A DNA stretch of 64,000 nt, from assembly GCF_013408825.1 (NCBI RefSeq), contig NZ_JACCBZ010000006.1:62001-126000 (forward strand), written 5' to 3'. The notes under the pieces are model-generated. The model had not been told where the DNA came from, did not search any database, and saw only the letters and a program-made list of their open reading frames with translations. How positions within the stretch are numbered: the first letter of the stretch is position 1; each line of letters opens with the position of its first letter. This document shows, piece by piece, positions 5,547-34,924 of the stretch. The position numbers and the translations under genes were made by a program. The DNA comes from Mucilaginibacter tundrae. Lineage in GTDB: Bacteria; Bacteroidota; Bacteroidia; Sphingobacteriales; Sphingobacteriaceae.

Positions 5547-5584
5547 TATTTTTATTGCCTTAACAGGCTGTGCTTCTTTGTGCA

Positions 5585-5592
5585 TATCTTTG
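5585..5592 (+). promoter_or_regulatory. -7 promoter element of the T9SS plug gene
   Basis: TATCTTTG matches TAnnTTTG. It lies 54 bases before the chosen ATG and 38 bases after the ABC-F stop, so the gene probably has its own promoter. This is also why the upstream in-frame alternative start codon is not preferred. Confidence 0.45.
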
Positions 5593-5646
5593 AGTTATGT
5601 GATTAACCGATCACTAATTAAAGACCTGTACGAAGAAGCATTTTTT

Positions 5647-6903
5647 ATGAATAAACATCTTGCCTTTATAATGCTATTTTTTTCTTTAAATAGCATAGCC
5701 CAAACCGCCCCCTTCGATAATAATATTTATAACCCGGCTATAAAAACTGTTGAGTTTTATAATACTAAAAAGGAACCCTCCTTCCCTATTGTTAACTTAA
5801 ATAGTGCTGAGCAAGTACAGCTTGCCTTTGATGACCTGCGTGGCGGCGTGCGTAATTACTATTATTCTATTGAGCATTGTGATGGCGATTGGAACTCATC
5901 CAACCTGTCACCCACCCAATATTTGCAAAATTTTACCGAGGATAAGATAATAGATTATACTTATTCATCGGCTACATTTCAGAAGTATACGCACTATACC
6001 GTAAAGTTCCCGAATGAGTATATTAAGCCTAAAATATCGGGTAATTATATTTTAAGGGTTTATGAGGATGATGATCCAACTAAACTTATTTTAACCCGCA
6101 GGTTTTATGTATTGAGCACCAAGGTTACTGTAAGCGGCGAAGTTGTGGCATCCAGTGATATGGATAAAAGGGCACATGATCAGAAAATCAATTTCCAGAT
6201 AGATTATGGGACACTTAAAGTGCAGAACCCGAATACTGATATCCGTACATGGGTGATGCAAAATCAGCGTAATGAGACGGGCTCATTTACTACTCAACCG
6301 CAATATATTCGTGGCTCGCAATTAATTTATGGCGATTTGAGTACTAATGAGTTTCCAGGCGGCAATGAGTTCAGGCATTTTGATACGAGGAGTTTGAAAT
6401 TGAATTCGGACAGGGTTTCGCATATTTACAGGGATACCGCGAATTCGGTTGTATTGTTGACTGATATGAGCCGCAACCTGCCCAACTATACTTTCTTATA
6501 TGATAATGATGGGCAGTTTTACCCACTAAACCAAGACGGAACAGACCCAACCATTGATGCTGATTATGCGCATATGTTTTTTAGTCTGGCTGCGGGAAAG
6601 GCGTCGGCTGATGGCTCTGCTTATATAGTGGGTAAGTTTAACGACTACAAGCTGGACGAGCACAGTAAACTCGATTATGATGACAAAGGTAAATTCTATA
6701 CACACCTGTTCCTAAAACAGGGTGTTTATGATTACCAATATGTATGGGTCGACAATGCCACCAAAAAGCCTGATTATACCTTTTTTGAAGGCAATTATTT
6801 CGATACGGAGAATAAGTACCAGGTATTGGTTTATTATCATCCACCCGCGGCGCAATGGGAGGAATTGGTTGGGTATGTGGTTTTGAGTTCAACACAAAAA
6901 TAA
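5647..6903 (+). CDS. Type IX secretion system plug protein (DUF5103 family)
   Basis: A 418-residue secreted protein. The ATG chosen gives a clean signal peptide, MNKHLAFIMLFFSLNSIAQ; the longer frame to an upstream TTG would bury it. The mature part starts with NIYNPAIKTVEFYN and includes LRGGVRNYYYSIEHCDGDW and LSPTQYLQNF, matching the DUF5103 family. The founding member was identified as the periplasmic plug that closes the SprA translocon of the type IX secretion system. It therefore likely acts in the periplasm or at the outer membrane as a gate. No other T9SS gene is adjacent. Confidence 0.85.
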   Translation: MNKHLAFIMLFFSLNSIAQTAPFDNNIYNPAIKTVEFYNTKKEPSFPIVNLNSAEQVQLAFDDLRGGVRNYYYSIEHCDGDWNSSNLSPTQYLQNFTEDKIIDYTYSSATFQKYTHYTVKFPNEYIKPKISGNYILRVYEDDDPTKLILTRRFYVLSTKVTVSGEVVASSDMDKRAHDQKINFQIDYGTLKVQNPNTDIRTWVMQNQRNETGSFTTQPQYIRGSQLIYGDLSTNEFPGGNEFRHFDTRSLKLNSDRVSHIYRDTANSVVLLTDMSRNLPNYTFLYDNDGQFYPLNQDGTDPTIDADYAHMFFSLAAGKASADGSAYIVGKFNDYKLDEHSKLDYDDKGKFYTHLFLKQGVYDYQYVWVDNATKKPDYTFFEGNYFDTENKYQVLVYYHPPAAQWEELVGYVVLSSTQK

Positions 6904-6925
6904 GAACCTGGATAATTTGAGCATT

Positions 6926-7319
6926 GGCTATCATACTGCGCGTAGTCGAAGTATGTGCGCCGGGCTGACGGATTATTTTAATAACAAGAACTTTGTATGA
7001 ACCAATACTTTTATGTAGTGATAATTCTTATTACACAGGTGTAACTAATGACTTGGAACGAAGATTAGCTGAGCATGAGAATGGAATTAATCCTAATTCT
7101 TATACACACACTAGAAGACCGCTTAAATTAGTTTTCCATGAGATGTTCCCGGATATTAACCAGGCAATAGCTTTTGAAAAACAGGTTAAGGGCTGGACAC
7201 GGGCGAAGAAAGAGGCTATTATTAAAGGAGATTGGGAATCATTGCCAAGAATAGCTAAAGAGAAGAAACATCGATGAGGTCTTTGCGCACATACTTCGAC
7301 TACGCTCAGTATGACAGCC
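6926..7319. mobile_element. Candidate mobile unit: GIY-YIG gene between 35-bp inverted repeats
   Basis: The arms at 6926-6960 and 7285-7319 are inverted copies of each other with two mismatches in 35 bp; the inner ends read GCGCACATACTTCGACTACG when pointing outward. They tightly enclose one GIY-YIG nuclease gene: the stop is about 7 bases from the right arm. No transposase is present and no target-site duplication was recognised. The arrangement suggests a non-autonomous or nuclease-mobilised cassette, which is an inference. Confidence 0.6.
6993..7277 (+). pseudogene. GIY-YIG nuclease (YhbQ/UPF0213-like), 5' end frameshifted
   Basis: The frame encodes SDNSYYTGVTNDLERRLAEH, FEKQVKGWTRAKKEAI and a basic C-terminus. 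These are the YIG tyrosine-glycine, the helix-1 arginine and the catalytic glutamate of single-domain GIY-YIG proteins. The first (GIY) strand is missing from this frame. It appears in another frame from the ATG at 6997 as MNQYFYV, which runs into a stop after 15 codons. A 16-nt deletion between two TACTTTTATGTA copies in the expected ancestral sequence would explain the shift. Translation could only start at a TTG and would lack the GIY tyrosine. Probably inactive. Confidence 0.6.
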
Positions 7320-7343
7320 TTTCGCGCTTTGTGTAAACGAAAA

Positions 7344-7374
7344 ATCCCCGACTTGCTTTCCGCAAATCGGGGAT
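7344..7374 (-). terminator. Terminator of the DPP IV-type peptidase gene
   Basis: A 13-bp stem (ATCCCCGACTTGC with GCAAATCGGGGAT, one mismatch) around a 5-base loop. Read on the minus strand it is followed by TTTTTCG. It lies 22 bases behind the stop of the minus-strand peptidase gene. Confidence 0.8.
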
Positions 7375-7396
7375 CATCATATATAATCAAATAATC

Positions 7397-9652
7397 CTAC
7401 TGCTTATTATTCAAATTAGGCAGATCACAAACGCCTTTCAAATAGTGCTGTAAATAGTTGAAATTTACTTCAGATATTAAAATATAACTCTGCAAGTTGT
7501 AAGCCGCACCGTGTGCCCCTGGTGGGTAGATGCGCAGATCAACGTCTTTACCGGCATTGGTAAGGGCTGTTAATAGTTGCATGGTATTGGCCGGGTGTAC
7601 GTTATCATCGCTCATGGAGTGGATCAACAGGAAATGATCTTTTAATCCTGCGGCGTGGGTCATGTCTGAGCTGTTTTTGTAGCCTTCGGCATTATCATCT
7701 AAAGTGTCCATGTAACGCTCGGTGTAGATATCATCATATAAACGCCAGTCGGTTACCGGGGAGTTTGACATACCTACTTTAAATACACCGGGATGGGTAA
7801 GTAAGGTATAACTGCTGATATAACCGCCGTAACTGGTGCCCATAATAGCCATATTAGCGCTATCGATAAAAGGCATGGTGCCCATATAATGCGCGGTTTC
7901 GGCGAAATCTTCACTTTCAAATTTACCCAGTTGTTTGTAAACACCTTTCAGGAATGCACTGCCGTAGTTGGCGCTGCCCCTGTTGTTTACGTTTACTACC
8001 ACATAGCCGTTTTGCGCTAACCATTGCGCCCATGCATCACCAGAAAATCTATTGAATACCTCGTGTGATTCAGGGCCACCGTAAACGGTCATTACCATTG
8101 GGTATTTTTTGTTTGGATCGAAGTTGAATGGTTTGATCATGTAGCCATCCAGTTCAACGCCATCACGGGTTTTGAAGTGAAAGTTTTCCTGCGGCGAATA
8201 AGCATGATTAGTTATAAAATCGCTTACCGCTTTATTGTCTTCCAGTGTTTTAAGCACTTTGCCCTTATCATCGCACAAATCAACATGGGTTGGCACCTTT
8301 ACACTGCTGTATTTGTCTATATAATACTTAGTGTTAGGCGACATGTTGATGTCGTGGTAACCCGGCTGATTGGATAGCCTTGTTTTTTTGCTGCCATCGT
8401 ATTTTATCGAATAGAATTGCTGCTCGATCGGAGAAGTCTCTGCTGACAGGTAATAGATGATTTTTGAATCGGGATTGATGCCGATAACCTTTAACATATC
8501 CCAATTGCCTTTGGTTACCTGGTTCAATAATTTACCCTCATAATTATAACGGTAAATGTGGTAGTAGCCTGAGCGATCTGACACCCAGAAAAAGTCTTTT
8601 GACTTTTCGGGGAAGTACAGCATATCATTGATATTGGTGTAGAAGTTGGAGATAGCCACCCAGGTAGTGTTCTTCTCTTCTAAAACTACATGATGCTCGC
8701 CGGTTTTTACGTTGAAGAAGTATAGCTTCATATCGTTTTGCGCACGGTTTAGGGTAACCATGGCTAATACATCAGGGTCGCTTGTCCAGTAGATACGCGG
8801 GATATAGAAATCACCGGTTTCATCGGGGCTTAACCATACTTTTTTGCCGGAGTTTACATCGATCACACCGATTTTAACCGAAGGGTTTGGATCACCAACC
8901 TGCGGGATAGAAATGTGAATGTTATTCGGATGCTGACCTTCGTAATTGGTCATTTGGAAATCTGGCACTTTGCTTTCGTCAAATTGCCAGAAAGCCATGT
9001 ACTTGTTATCAGGCGACCAGTTCCAGGCTTGCGATACTTCCAGTTCTTCTTCATAAACCCAATCACCGTGGCCATTGAAGATGCCATTTTCGCTGGTTGA
9101 ATCACTGGTTAGTTGTTTTTCTTGTCCGGTAGCGAAGTTGTAAACGTACATATTACCACCACGCTCAATACCTACCATTGAACCATCGGGAGATAATTCG
9201 GCTGAACGGGCGCTTTTAGCGGCTGCCTTTAATTGTTTGCTTTGAATATCATACACGTAATAATCAGACACACCTGAGCGGCGGTAGATCTTGTGAAAAT
9301 TGGTTTGGAAAACCAGGTGTTTAAAATCATGCGTCCAGTCGAATTTTTCGTATTCGAAAGGTTTATCGGTACCAGGGTATTTTAGATCGGCATTATTGAA
9401 GATCACGCTTTCCTTTAGTGTTGCCGGATCCATTGAGCTGATACCGTCTTTACTTGCGAAAGAATACTGATTGCCGCCATTGATCCAGTCGACATTTTGA
9501 GGACCTGATTTTCCGCGAAGCATTCTGCCCGTCATTAAGGCATCCGTTAAGCTGGTGTATTGGGTTTTAGTTTGCGCGATGGTATTTTGGGGTAATACAC
9601 AGCCAAACAAACAAAGGCACGCCAACATGCCTTGTAAAGACTTATTTTTCAT
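7397..9652 (-). CDS. S9 family dipeptidyl peptidase (DPP IV-like)
   Basis: A 751-residue serine peptidase with a signal peptide (about 27 residues, ending NTIAQ), so periplasmic or outer-membrane associated. An N-terminal beta-propeller (about 60-480) contains DWVYEEELEVSQAWNWSPD, including the paired glutamates that bind the substrate amino terminus in DPP IV. The C-terminal alpha/beta hydrolase has the triad Ser607 (GTSYGGY), Asp682 (SMSDDNVHP) and His714 (PGAHGAA). It should remove X-Pro or X-Ala dipeptides from peptide amino termini, supporting peptide scavenging. It is transcribed alone and its terminator is visible. Confidence 0.93.
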   Translation of the reverse strand: MKNKSLQGMLACLCLFGCVLPQNTIAQTKTQYTSLTDALMTGRMLRGKSGPQNVDWINGGNQYSFASKDGISSMDPATLKESVIFNNADLKYPGTDKPFEYEKFDWTHDFKHLVFQTNFHKIYRRSGVSDYYVYDIQSKQLKAAAKSARSAELSPDGSMVGIERGGNMYVYNFATGQEKQLTSDSTSENGIFNGHGDWVYEEELEVSQAWNWSPDNKYMAFWQFDESKVPDFQMTNYEGQHPNNIHISIPQVGDPNPSVKIGVIDVNSGKKVWLSPDETGDFYIPRIYWTSDPDVLAMVTLNRAQNDMKLYFFNVKTGEHHVVLEEKNTTWVAISNFYTNINDMLYFPEKSKDFFWVSDRSGYYHIYRYNYEGKLLNQVTKGNWDMLKVIGINPDSKIIYYLSAETSPIEQQFYSIKYDGSKKTRLSNQPGYHDINMSPNTKYYIDKYSSVKVPTHVDLCDDKGKVLKTLEDNKAVSDFITNHAYSPQENFHFKTRDGVELDGYMIKPFNFDPNKKYPMVMTVYGGPESHEVFNRFSGDAWAQWLAQNGYVVVNVNNRGSANYGSAFLKGVYKQLGKFESEDFAETAHYMGTMPFIDSANMAIMGTSYGGYISSYTLLTHPGVFKVGMSNSPVTDWRLYDDIYTERYMDTLDDNAEGYKNSSDMTHAAGLKDHFLLIHSMSDDNVHPANTMQLLTALTNAGKDVDLRIYPPGAHGAAYNLQSYILISEVNFNYLQHYLKGVCDLPNLNNKQ

Positions 9653-9730
9653 GAATGAGGGAAATTAAAACTTGCTAAAGCTAGCATATTTTAAGGATGA
9701 TTACAAGTGTAGCGGAAATGTTATGAAGAT

Positions 9731-9795
9731 TGACTCACCCGACTACGCTACGCTAGTCGATCCCTCTTCGCCTGCGGCGGAAAGAGTGGAAAGAG
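9731..9795 (+). repeat. Dispersed hairpin repeat copy
   Basis: It carries CTCACCCGACTACGCTACGC, then CTAGTCGATCCCTCTTCGCC and TGCGGCGGAAAGAG, nearly identical to the second half of the composite repeat at 10736-10802. It lies in the gap upstream of the DPP IV gene. The rest of the gap to 10006 is AT-rich with no gene seen. Confidence 0.75.
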
Positions 9796-10006
9796 AATAG
9801 GTTTTATAAGTTAGAACATTTAGACTGCATATTAAATATAACTTTTATAGACATAATTTTATAAGAAGAGCCCACCTTTTGATGTTAAAACCATAAGTTT
9901 CTGTAATAGAACTATATAGTAAGAAAGAATAAATTCCCGATTATATTTTATTGTTTTTCAGATAATTACATTTGATTATAGTTTCACTATTAACTACAAA
10001 AAGGAA

Positions 10007-10405
10007 ATGATACAAGAAAAATTAATGGCAGATGAATTATTTAATCGATTAATCGCAGACATCAATAAATCGATTAAAATACGGGGGCAGGTTGGCAATC
10101 TTAAAATTCAAATGGCGAATATTTTGGAAAACAGTGTTCAAGATTTTGTTTCGTCTTTAAATATGATGGAATTTGATACACATCTTGATGTTGTTATACA
10201 ATTTTTGGCGACAAAATCTATAAATCATCAGCAGGGTAAAAAACTAAATATACAAAGCATACTGAATGAGTTACAAGCTAATAAAAATGAAATTATTGAA
10301 CGTGTAAAATTCATATTGGATGACAATTTAATTTCATTCAATGGTGAATCTATATCTGGATTACTAAGAGATGAGTTTGAGTGGATACATCGCGCTACAA
10401 TATAA
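10007..10405 (+). CDS. Hypothetical protein, 132 aa
   Basis: Not recognised. The sequence is helix-rich, with no signal peptide or membrane segment: a charged N-terminus (ELFNRLIADINKSIKIRGQ), a middle segment with LDVVIQFLATKSIN, and a C-terminus DEFEWIHRATI. The gene is clearly more AT-rich than its neighbours and is bracketed by repeats (9731-9795 and 10451-10531), which suggests acquired DNA. An alternative ATG lies six codons downstream. No conserved motif was found to indicate function. Confidence 0.5.
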   Translation: MIQEKLMADELFNRLIADINKSIKIRGQVGNLKIQMANILENSVQDFVSSLNMMEFDTHLDVVIQFLATKSINHQQGKKLNIQSILNELQANKNEIIERVKFILDDNLISFNGESISGLLRDEFEWIHRATI

Positions 10406-10450
10406 TTTGAGAATATTTTTGTTTGCATGTAACGACATAATTGGCGTTTT

Positions 10451-10531
10451 GTCATTGCTGTAAGGAACGAAGCAATCGCACGTAGAAAGGCGGTGTTGCA
10501 AGTTCTCGATTACTTCGTTCCTCGCAATGAC
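10451..10531. repeat. Palindromic repeat with GTCATTGC ends
   Basis: The left arm GTCATTGCTGTAAGGAACGA and following AGCAATCG pair with the right arm CGTTCCTCGCAATGAC (10516-10531) and the preceding GATTACTT, apart from a two-base bulge and isolated mismatches. Repeats with the core GTCATTGCGAGGAACGAAGC recur in many bacterial genomes. It opens a 629-bp gap (10406-11034) in which no convincing gene is seen and which is largely repeats. Confidence 0.65.
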
Positions 10532-10577
10532 ATGGTGGAGAGCGGCCCGTTAACGACATGGTGTCGATGGCCTGCGC

Positions 10578-10606
10578 TTATGCTTCGAGGACCTCAGCAT
10601 GACAAC
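10578..10606 (+). repeat. Solo relic of the GIY-YIG flanking repeat
   Basis: ATGCTTCGAGGACCTCAGCA followed by TGACAAC matches the terminal repeat of the 6926-7319 unit (ATACTTCGACTACGCTCAGT then ATGACA) with several changes. A second, weaker relic, TTCTTCGTTTCGCTCAGAAC, is at 10912-10931. Neither is linked to a GIY-YIG gene here. Confidence 0.4.
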
Positions 10607-10629
10607 GCACTTGGAATAAAAAAGGATTT

Positions 10630-10802
10630 GGCGTTAGCGATAGTAGTGGATACCGGCCAGGTGGTTAAGGCCCAGTGTAGTATGAGCGAATAGCACGGGC
10701 CGGAGGCAACGCCCAAAGCTTGTGTAAGACTTTTGCGCACTCCGCTGACTCACCCGACTACGCTGCGCTGGTCGACCTCTCTTCGCCTGCGGCGGAAAGA
10801 GG
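10630..10802 (+). repeat. Composite structured repeat, copy 2
   Basis: This aligns with 3356-3523 over its length. It begins GGCGTTAGCGATAGTAGTGG and continues ATACCGGCC; GGGCCGGAGGCAACGCCC at 10697-10714 closes the first structured module, with outer pairing of GGCGTT to AACGCC and CCGGCC to GGCCGG. The linker AAGACTTTTGCGCAC is identical to copy 1, and the double-hairpin module follows. A short open frame runs into this area (10493-10693) but is made of repeat sequence and is not a gene. Confidence 0.75.
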
Positions 10803-10820
10803 TGAAAACACAAGTTTATT

Positions 10821-10882
10821 TCCCTCTTTACCGCAAAGCGGAAGAGAGGGAAGGTTGAGCGGCTGAGCGAAAACCGGGTGAG
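10821..10882 (-). repeat. Inverted, diverged copy of the double-hairpin module
   Basis: Read on the minus strand it begins CTCACCCGG and contains CCCTCTCTTCCGCTTTGCGG, matching the start and second hairpin of the module at 10750-10802. The two together form a large inverted repeat. Downstream to the thioesterase gene there are only short degenerate repeats such as AAATCCGAAATCGAAC. Confidence 0.5.
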
Positions 10883-11034
10883 TTGTCTGCAAGCAGCAAT
10901 TAACGTACAGGTTCTTCGTTTCGCTCAGAACGACAAAGCATGAAGCAGAATGACAAGGCGGCGAGCAATAAATCCGAAATCGAACTTCCGAAATCCGAAA
11001 TTACAGTATATTTACAGCTAAAATCACTGACCCG

Positions 11035-11556
11035 ATGCAAGGAAAGACACCGAAGGAATCATACACCATAATGAATGAGCTGGTATTGCCCAATGATACC
11101 AATACGCTAAATAACCTGATGGGTGGGCGTTTGTTGCATTGGATGGATATCGCGTCGGCTATTTCGGCGCAGAAGCATTGTAACAGGATTGTGGTTACGG
11201 CTTCGGTGGATAATGTATCGTTTAAGGCACCCATCAAATTGGGTGATGTAATTAGTATTGAGGCCAGGGTTAGCCGGGCATTTACTACTTCGGTTGAGGT
11301 TAGAATGGATGTTTGGGCGGAGAATATACCCAGCGGGACGCGTGTAAAAAGCAATGAGGCTTATTATACTTTTGTGGCCCTGGATAGCGACGGCAATACA
11401 GTGAAAGTACCTGAACTGATACCGGAAACTGCTGAAGAAATGATGTTATTTGACGGTGCTTTGCGCCGCAGGCAATTGCGCCTGATACTAGGCGGTAAGA
11501 TGAGCCCTGATGATGCTACCGAACTGAAGGCTTTATTTTTCGCGGCGCAACAGTAA
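11035..11556 (+). CDS. Acyl-CoA thioesterase (hotdog fold)
   Basis: A 173-residue hotdog-fold thioesterase of the YciA/BFIT type. Visible motifs are NDTNTLNNLMGGRLLHWMDI (an active-site loop with N/T and a conserved HWMD segment), ASVDNVSFKAPIKLGD and the strand NEAYYTFVALD. These enzymes hydrolyse acyl-CoA to free acid and CoA in the cytoplasm; chain-length preference cannot be told. It sits 6 bases ahead of the YfcC carrier gene, so the two are probably an operon that may handle organic acids. Confidence 0.9.
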   Translation: MQGKTPKESYTIMNELVLPNDTNTLNNLMGGRLLHWMDIASAISAQKHCNRIVVTASVDNVSFKAPIKLGDVISIEARVSRAFTTSVEVRMDVWAENIPSGTRVKSNEAYYTFVALDSDGNTVKVPELIPETAEEMMLFDGALRRRQLRLILGGKMSPDDATELKALFFAAQQ

Positions 11557-33880: not shown

Positions 33881-34924
33881 TTACCCTTTTTGATCTACGG
33901 TTGCAGCAATATATTTTCGCCATTTTTCTAAAACGGTTTCAAAATCCTGCGGCAGAGCGGATTCGAAATAAATATATTTTTTTTGCGTGGGATGTATAAA
34001 GCCCAGTGTTTGCGCATGCAAAGCCTGGCGAGGCATTATTTCGAAGCAATTATCGACAAATTGCTTGTATTTGCTGAATACCGTACCTTTTAAAATTTTA
34101 TCGCCACCATAGGTAGCATCGCTAAACAAAGGGTGGCCAATATGTTTCATATGGGCCCTTATCTGGTGCGTACGGCCGGTTTCCAGTTGGCATTCAATCA
34201 GTGTAACATAATTCATGCGCTCTAAAACTTTGTAATGAGTTACGCTCCATTTCCCCTTTTCGGGGTCATCATAAATAGCCATTACACGCCTGTCGTTAAT
34301 ACTGCGTCCAATATAACCGGTAACCGTACCATCCTGCTCCAAATCGCCCCAAACCAAGGCTAAATATTTACGTGTAATAGTATGTTCAAAAAACTGGCGT
34401 GCCAGCCAGGTCATAGCTCGCTCATTTTTACTGATTAGTAATAATCCCGATGTATCCTTATCAATGCGGTGGACTAATCCCGGCCTGCCATCGTTACCCG
34501 GCAAGGTTGGCAATTGCTGAAAATGGTAAACTAAGCCGTTAACCAACGTACCTGTATAATTATTATAACCAGGGTGTACAACCATGCCGGCTGGTTTATT
34601 CACAATAAGCACATCATCGTCCTCATAAACGATATCCAAAGTGATGTTTTCAGGGTAAACTTCCGTATCACGTGGTGGATGTGGCAGAACAACCGATATC
34701 ACATCAAGTGGCTTAACTTTATAACTTGGTTTTATTGGTTTATCATTTACCAGCACATTACCCAAATCAATAGCATTTTGTATGCGGTTACGGGATGCAT
34801 TCTCAACTCGGTGCATCAAAAATTTATCAATACGTAAAAGCGACTGGCCCTTATCAACAACTACACGTAAATGCTCATAAAGATCCTGTTCGTCCTGTTC
34901 GTTTATTTCAACATCATCTGTCAT
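33881..34924 (-). CDS. rluD: RluD-family 23S rRNA pseudouridine synthase
   Basis: A 347-residue RluA/RluD family enzyme. The N-terminal S4 RNA-binding domain (about 28-90) contains LLRIDKFLMHRVENASRNRI. The catalytic domain carries Asp155 in VHRIDKDTSGLLL, preceded by VNKPAGMVVHPG and followed by LETGRTHQIRAHMKHIGHPL. It should isomerise uridines in helix 69 of 23S rRNA if truly RluD; the C-terminal extension fits that. It lies 18 bases upstream of the aminotransferase gene and probably shares a transcript. Confidence 0.9.
   Translation of the reverse strand: MTDDVEINEQDEQDLYEHLRVVVDKGQSLLRIDKFLMHRVENASRNRIQNAIDLGNVLVNDKPIKPSYKVKPLDVISVVLPHPPRDTEVYPENITLDIVYEDDDVLIVNKPAGMVVHPGYNNYTGTLVNGLVYHFQQLPTLPGNDGRPGLVHRIDKDTSGLLLISKNERAMTWLARQFFEHTITRKYLALVWGDLEQDGTVTGYIGRSINDRRVMAIYDDPEKGKWSVTHYKVLERMNYVTLIECQLETGRTHQIRAHMKHIGHPLFSDATYGGDKILKGTVFSKYKQFVDNCFEIMPRQALHAQTLGFIHPTQKKYIYFESALPQDFETVLEKWRKYIAATVDQKG

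Follow-up and report, generated by a model that had tools for sequence, protein, structure and literature searches.

REPs are common short repeats of bacteria. Two REP superfamilies were described in 2013 (Di Nocera et al., PMC3733652). According to that paper, members of one of them, the CGTC REPs, carry a CGTC or TGTC tag, start their stem with A-T, mostly form head-to-head dimers in intergenic DNA and occur in several phyla, including Alphaproteobacteria and Bacteroidetes. The consensus build given there is an 8-9 bp stem with a short tail, mostly CCA. In the same paper, CGTC REPs are reported as 'not associated to transposase genes', and the tyrosine transposase genes of the CGTC-positive species named had no flanking CGTC sequences.

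Here we analysed a stretch of 64,000 nucleotides from Mucilaginibacter tundrae (the window), in which inverted repeats enclose a GIY-YIG gene. With a probability of roughly 0.7, this cassette is a two-part mobile element, composed of a single-domain GIY-YIG nuclease of ~95 amino acids and CGTC-type REP hairpin ends, that works like a RAYT/REPIN pair with an unrelated hydrolytic nuclease.

The M. tundrae cassette and its REPs

An earlier sequence-only reading of the window had described the inverted arms with two mismatches, and this proved exact: the two 35-nt arms pair at 33 of 35 positions (94% complementary) and are separated by 324 nt (Table 1). When the 23-nt core of the right arm was searched in the window with up to 3 mismatches, only the two arms matched (chance expectation 0.00). 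A single reading frame lies between them, as that reading had stated, and PF01541 (GIY-YIG) was the sole Pfam match of its protein at E≤0.001. However, the gene is frame-shifted and has lost its N-terminal strand. Read by eye against the orthologue (L095) of genome G009, which is 86% identical to M. tundrae across the 4-kb region of the cassette, a short deletion that is not a multiple of three lies just past the old start codon; it removed the first strand of the fold and left the ATG out of frame. This strand is intact in the G009 unit and in two metagenome relatives (P0002 and P0003). The conserved Tyr-Gly, Arg and Glu of the GIY-YIG fold are present in 14 aligned relatives, in which Y17, G19, R27, H31 and E65 are invariant. 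An Rfam search of window positions 6500-11500 gave no match.

Table 1. Features of the cassette and of nearby REPs in the window
Feature	Position	Strand	Basis and remarks
Whole cassette	6926..7319	+	394 bp; in the gap of a convergent gene pair (5578-6903 + / 7397-9652 -)
Left arm, family A REP, tag decayed to TATC	6926..6960	+	Inverted-repeat search; faces the right arm head-to-head
GIY-YIG nuclease gene remnant, clade A	6993..7277	+	PF01541, E=1.9e-16; frame-shifting deletion removed the N-terminal strand
Right arm, family A REP, TGTC tag intact	7285..7319	-	Inverted-repeat and core-motif searches
Gene-less head-to-head dimer, REP family C (GTCATTGC...GCAATC)	10450..10532	.	Inverted repeat; sequence
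Solo REP, family A variant	10574..10604	-	Read by eye; close to the variant in L209
Solo REP, related to family B	10910..10938	-	Read by eye

Both cassette arms are the same kind of repeat as gene-less dimers found elsewhere in the M. tundrae genome (G000). At up to 2 mismatches, the 16-nt arm core had 24 matches in this genome versus 1 for the reversed pattern. These were the two cassette arms, eight gene-less head-to-head pairs spanning 58-64 bp and six singles. The dimers are laid out as TGTCAT-stem-loop-stem-ATG, a spacer and then the same reversed. Their inner flank GTGCGTAAAGGCC resembles GTGCGCAAAGACC inside the right arm of the cassette, and a similar inner flank occurs in both arms of locus L037. 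That gene-less dimers share the inner flank of the cassette is as expected of deletion derivatives.

Two solo relics of the cassette terminus had also been proposed, at 10578-10606 and about 10912-10931. Both are real REPs, but they do not carry the same core and belong partly to other families: the 15-nt arm core found no match there at up to 3 mismatches, and its only match in the window outside the arms was at 33953. The family C dimer was absent from the earlier list; family C REPs flank clade C nucleases. A single intergenic stretch between 10440 and 10940 thus brings together a family C dimer, a family A variant and a B-like REP, as might be seen if REPs commonly landed in such gaps. A 62-nt direct repeat (9731-9792 and 10746-10807, 90% identical) was not recognised as a REP of families A to D. 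The genome also holds a second decayed GIY-YIG gene (L003, G000:C3:456897-457109), by eye of the clade D type, with family D REPs on its flanks in head-to-head orientation.

Nuclease clades and REP families in Mucilaginibacter

Four REP families (A, TGAGC..GTCGAAG; B, TGAGCGATAGCGAAG; C, GTCATTGCGAG; D, GTCATTTCGA) were set by eye from arms already seen, without use of the proteins, and wider patterns served for labelling. Flanking REPs labelled 52 of the 56 distinct Mucilaginibacter loci (29 A, 9 D, 7 B and 7 C, with 4 unlabelled); three labelled loci (L213, L332 and L340) also carry the motif of a second family. On the nuclease protein tree, which was built from 102 columns and in which 31 of 53 inner forks are open while the branches leading to the four groups reach support values of 82 to 99, the four REP families need 3 changes. 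This is the minimum possible; 1000 shuffles needed at least 17. By their flanking proteins the 52 labelled loci form 44 neighbourhood groups, and the match between clade and REP is therefore not accounted for by inheritance of a single site, with the reservation that the flanks reached at most about 1.3 kb per side (less than 0.6 kb for 20 loci) and shared sites may be missed. Two family-B loci have a neighbour in common with one family-A locus.

Such a one-to-one match over 44 groups would not be expected if the nuclease were a passenger, or a preferred landing site, of REPs that are spread by a RAYT-like Y1 transposase or by host repair. This alternative, which we consider unlikely, draws on the presence of RAYT-like Y1_Tnp genes in 109 of 120 Mucilaginibacter genomes and on REP-rich genomes that have no clade-A gene. 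However, A-D REPs were found on neither side of any of 20 Y1_Tnp loci (L388-L407, hand-picked from among the matches listed), whereas they flank 53 of the 56 GIY-YIG loci, 41 of these on both sides. Other inverted arms surround 10 of the 20 Y1_Tnp loci, and the motif TTTGTAG was present at 7 of the 20 versus 5 of the 56 GIY-YIG loci. The CGTC-positive species speak against a passenger as well, given the tyrosine transposase genes without flanking CGTC sequences described in PMC3733652.

A simple RAYT explanation of the family A-D REPs was discarded, since the 20 Y1_Tnp loci carry other repeats. A GTAG-type system may coexist in Mucilaginibacter, as one of two nuclease-REP systems that stand side by side with separate repeats. 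The Y1_Tnp genes may still have a helper role.

Over the 120 genomes, family-A REPs averaged 12.7 copies in the 33 genomes with a clade-A gene versus 2.6 in those without (Mann-Whitney P=4e-4, a statistic that ignores kinship), and at least 10 copies were present in 8 of 33 versus 4 of 87 genomes. The reversed-pattern control gave zero in all 120. Three genomes without a clade-A gene at E≤1e-20 were nevertheless rich in family A (G022, 51 copies; G065, 37; G136, 40), while 9 of the 33 genomes with the gene had no copy by pattern. The family-C pattern matched in 13 of 25 genomes of other taxa, and its control had no match. G389 contains 63 copies of the family-C pattern, although the nuclease locus analysed from it (L140) carries arms of another kind. 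Head-to-head REP dimers were also found in Flavobacterium genomes.

The two free positions of the family-A pattern keep their pair in 102 of the 104 perfect copies listed, which are related copies from 8 genomes (77 G-C, 17 A-T, 2 C-G and 6 G-T pairs; 2 unpaired A-C). This speaks for selection on the hairpin. Predicted folding of single Bacteroidota arms was no better than that of shuffled DNA (z 0.36 to -1.17). In contrast, alphaproteobacterial arms (z -3.2 to -5.1), one clostridial arm (z -2.4) and a complete Mucilaginibacter dimer (z -4.8) were predicted to fold better than shuffled DNA. The predicted stems have at least 8 pairs in three alphaproteobacterial arms, and 5-6 pairs broken by mismatches in Bacteroidota arms. 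On these predictions, the nuclease of Bacteroidota may act on the dimer or on a cruciform.

Filled sites, empty sites and inverted arms in other bacteria

A comparison of empty and filled orthologous sites, suggested in the sequence-only reading as a check, revealed relatives with and without the unit. At the M. tundrae cassette site, the unit is present in G009 and G026 and absent in G101 (88% identical flanks), G132 and G070. G123 has a solo arm remnant there, and G121 and G029 have a dimer of another REP family. In Azospirillum lipoferum 4B, the nuclease and two REP dimers lie between sufB and sufC of the suf operon; the same site of A. ramasamyi, A. oryzae and strain B510 (95.6-96.7% identical flanks) consists of an 87 to 129 bp spacer without unit. 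The unit of Shinella HZN7 is missing from two other Shinella (about 80% identical). No target-site duplication or exact junction was readable at filled and empty sites, where the intergenic DNA is too diverged. The same holds for the junctions of 11 M. tundrae REP sites compared with G009, G101 and G123, where the diverged DNA often contains other REPs.

In Sphingobium TomTYG64 and TomTYG74, in Sinorhizobium K101 and at another site of G101, a perfect or nearly perfect single palindrome takes the place of the relatives' unit or dimer. Single collapsed palindromes with the tag on both sides stand at L326, L327, L318 and L300, where relatives carry a cassette or dimer. These palindromes are likely a decay footprint, because their form fits slippage between self-complementary stems. 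Tandem nuclease matches occur at L306 and at G292:C18:37967-39156, and in the Sinorhizobium meliloti record the upstream tandem copy has been reduced to the 3' end of the gene, with REPs on either side.

The nuclease could instead be a domesticated guard that trims or resolves replication-stalling REP hairpins or cruciforms, with the flanking REPs controlling its expression as terminators or by autoregulation. GIY-YIG proteins such as Slx1 cut DNA structure-specifically, which would suit this role. In four Flavobacterium loci (L138, L149, L155 and L178) the nuclease gene precedes one common downstream gene, which from its sequence we take to be DUF393-like; this is the picture of a retained gene and suggests long retention at one site. 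However, sister species carry the unit at different sites, one genome (G192) has 19 GIY-YIG matches, and tandem cassettes occur along with decayed copies such as that of M. tundrae and L003. All of this has the look of a mobile element, and we regard the guard as improbable, much like the passenger.

To score inverted arms, the 300 bp before each GIY-YIG match were aligned with the reverse-complemented 300 bp after it; a best pair scoring at least 28 counted as a pass, and equal-size stretches elsewhere in the same loci served as controls. HNH and Y1_Tnp genes were added as extra controls, because most gene-sized controls fall in coding DNA. Proteins already seen, loci with less than 150 bp on a side, the window's copy and L408 (the same locus as L172) were left out of the counts. 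The test was passed by 47 of 53 distinct loci in Mucilaginibacter (controls 0/68), 43 of 74 in other Bacteroidota (1/70), 44 of 76 on GTDB contigs of many phyla (0/136) and 21 of 29 in Hyphomicrobiales (1/53), that is, by 155 of 232 GIY-YIG loci versus 2 of 327 controls. Among 21 HNH loci (15 of 25 genomes of one surveyed set), 1 passed, with an AT-rich match. Samples picked blind to the arms gave 20 of 20 Mucilaginibacter loci scoring at least 36 and 19 of 38 other Bacteroidota loci scoring at least 28. Outside Mucilaginibacter, 71 of 179 loci (about 40%) failed the test, and some relatives of the cassette gene, for example L309, L310 and L315, have no arms.

Two other ways of counting were set aside. 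Strict-stem hairpin counting was replaced by arm-to-arm alignment, as the Bacteroidota stems are interrupted; it had found head-to-head hairpins in 1/28, 4/29, 20/76 and 0/28 loci of four sets (controls 0/56, 0/56, 3/136 and 0/56). Mismatched upstream and downstream pairs gave an inflated null (score of at least 28 in 42 of 58 loci versus 16% of 600 such pairs), since the arms of different loci are similar, hence the gene-sized controls from the same locus. The 106 best arm pairs, taken from overlapping sets, comprised 58 head-to-head, 9 tail-to-tail, 12 of both kinds and 27 unassigned, and a TGTC or CGTC tag is present in the arms of many loci.

By record titles, arm-positive taxa include Bacteroidota, Fibrobacter, Oscillospiraceae, Alpha- and Gammaproteobacteria, Treponema, Elusimicrobium and Cloacimonadota. 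We also examined 13 plasmid records of named bacteria, chosen from 32 and 51 records with a match. Strong arms were present in eight (Azospirillum lipoferum 4B, Sinorhizobium meliloti, two Shinella, Rhizobium CIAT894, Sphingobium TomMM7A, Novosphingobium aromaticivorans and Neorhizobium EC2-8), two passed weakly (Sinorhizobium C101 and Planktothrix), and the test found no arms in Rhizobium tumorigenes, Rhizobium K1/93 and Sphingomonas parapaucimobilis. On the Planktothrix agardhii plasmid (L316), an MmeI-type enzyme gene and the DISARM gene drmA flank a related GIY-YIG gene, in a region with TGTCATTCTGAG repeats. One alphaproteobacterial query of phage records gave no match.

The sequence-only reading had also named flanking beyond chance as a check and, as a refutation, orthologues without arms together with arms distributed independently of the gene. 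Arms flank GIY-YIG genes far more often than controls. Some relatives of the gene do lack arms and some arm-rich genomes have no gene of the matching clade, but not enough to make the association chance. REPs are frequent enough in the intergenic DNA of some genomes to flank some genes by accident, yet it is very improbable that a frequent repeat and a frequent gene merely came together in M. tundrae by chance, given the rarity of passing scores among gene-sized controls and HNH genes.

Proposed mechanism and known systems

On sequence evidence, the GIY-YIG gene and the REP ends are associated and co-mobile, and in Mucilaginibacter each nuclease clade keeps to its own REP family. We infer that the nuclease cuts the REP and that the unit transposes. 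The nuclease would recognise the hairpin form of its own REP, be it within single-stranded DNA or within an extruded cruciform, and nick beside the unpaired GTC tag. Host replication or repair would then copy the gene-bearing cassette into a new intergenic site, and gene-less dimers would be copied in trans by the same route. Units would decay when the gene is lost, and also when self-complementary stems slip against each other, which would collapse them to one palindrome.

The notion of a nuclease-REP pair with REP/RAYT logic, already put forward in the sequence-only reading, is thus partly supported, namely by arm enrichment, dispersed gene-less arms and filled and empty sites. The small GIY-YIG nuclease is a strong candidate for the enzyme that spreads CGTC-type repeats. 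Beyond Mucilaginibacter, we find it reasonably likely that such nucleases are dedicated CGTC-REP mobilisers across bacteria, forming a second, independently evolved REP system in which a hydrolytic nuclease replaces the transposase. The REP superfamily left without a reported transposase gene in the 2013 paper gains a testable candidate, a gene of ~95 codons that tracks REP families. This candidate would help to explain the wide spread of genes annotated 'GIY-YIG nuclease family protein'. If the proposal is true, the range of enzymes that can drive mobile elements of prokaryotes would extend to a GIY-YIG hydrolase.

Among the published papers listed by text searches, no title or abstract start linked GIY-YIG to REPs and none assigned an enzyme to the CGTC REPs after 2013; a term search of the RepRanger main text (2025, PMC12306157) did not find the term GIY.

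Like the CGTC REPs in PMC3733652, the cassette arms have an unpaired TGTC tag (decayed in the left arm), an A-T stem start and multi-copy head-to-head dimers. Unlike the CGTC REPs reported there, they enclose a GIY-YIG gene, and the Mucilaginibacter arms have other tails (for example GTGCG) and an interrupted stem. A CCA tail is present in alphaproteobacterial-type arms (L172, L305-L308 and L317). Sequence relatives of the cassette protein are the single-domain GIY-YIG proteins of UPF0213/COG2827, whose structures (PDB 1zg2 and 1ywl) are named hypothetical proteins, with no tie to repeats in the structure listing.

As in pairs of MITEs and insertion sequences, gene-less copies share their ends with the gene-bearing copy. 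In contrast to such pairs, there is no DDE or serine transposase domain, PF01541 being the sole Pfam domain of the cassette protein. No target duplication was seen either, in DNA too diverged around the junctions to be read. GIY-YIG homing endonucleases share the nuclease family and the selfish logic with the cassette; unlike them, the M. tundrae unit has hairpin ends and occupies the gap between two genes instead of an intron or intein.

Like the RAYT/GTAG-REP pairs (REPtrons and REPINs), the cassette consists of a nuclease gene flanked by its own REP family, with gene-less head-to-head dimers elsewhere and a match between enzyme clade and REP family. However, a GIY-YIG hydrolase takes the place of the HUH tyrosine transposase, and the tag is GTC instead of GTAG. 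What we class as new is therefore the pairing of a REP with a dedicated nuclease that involves an unrelated enzyme and the other REP superfamily.
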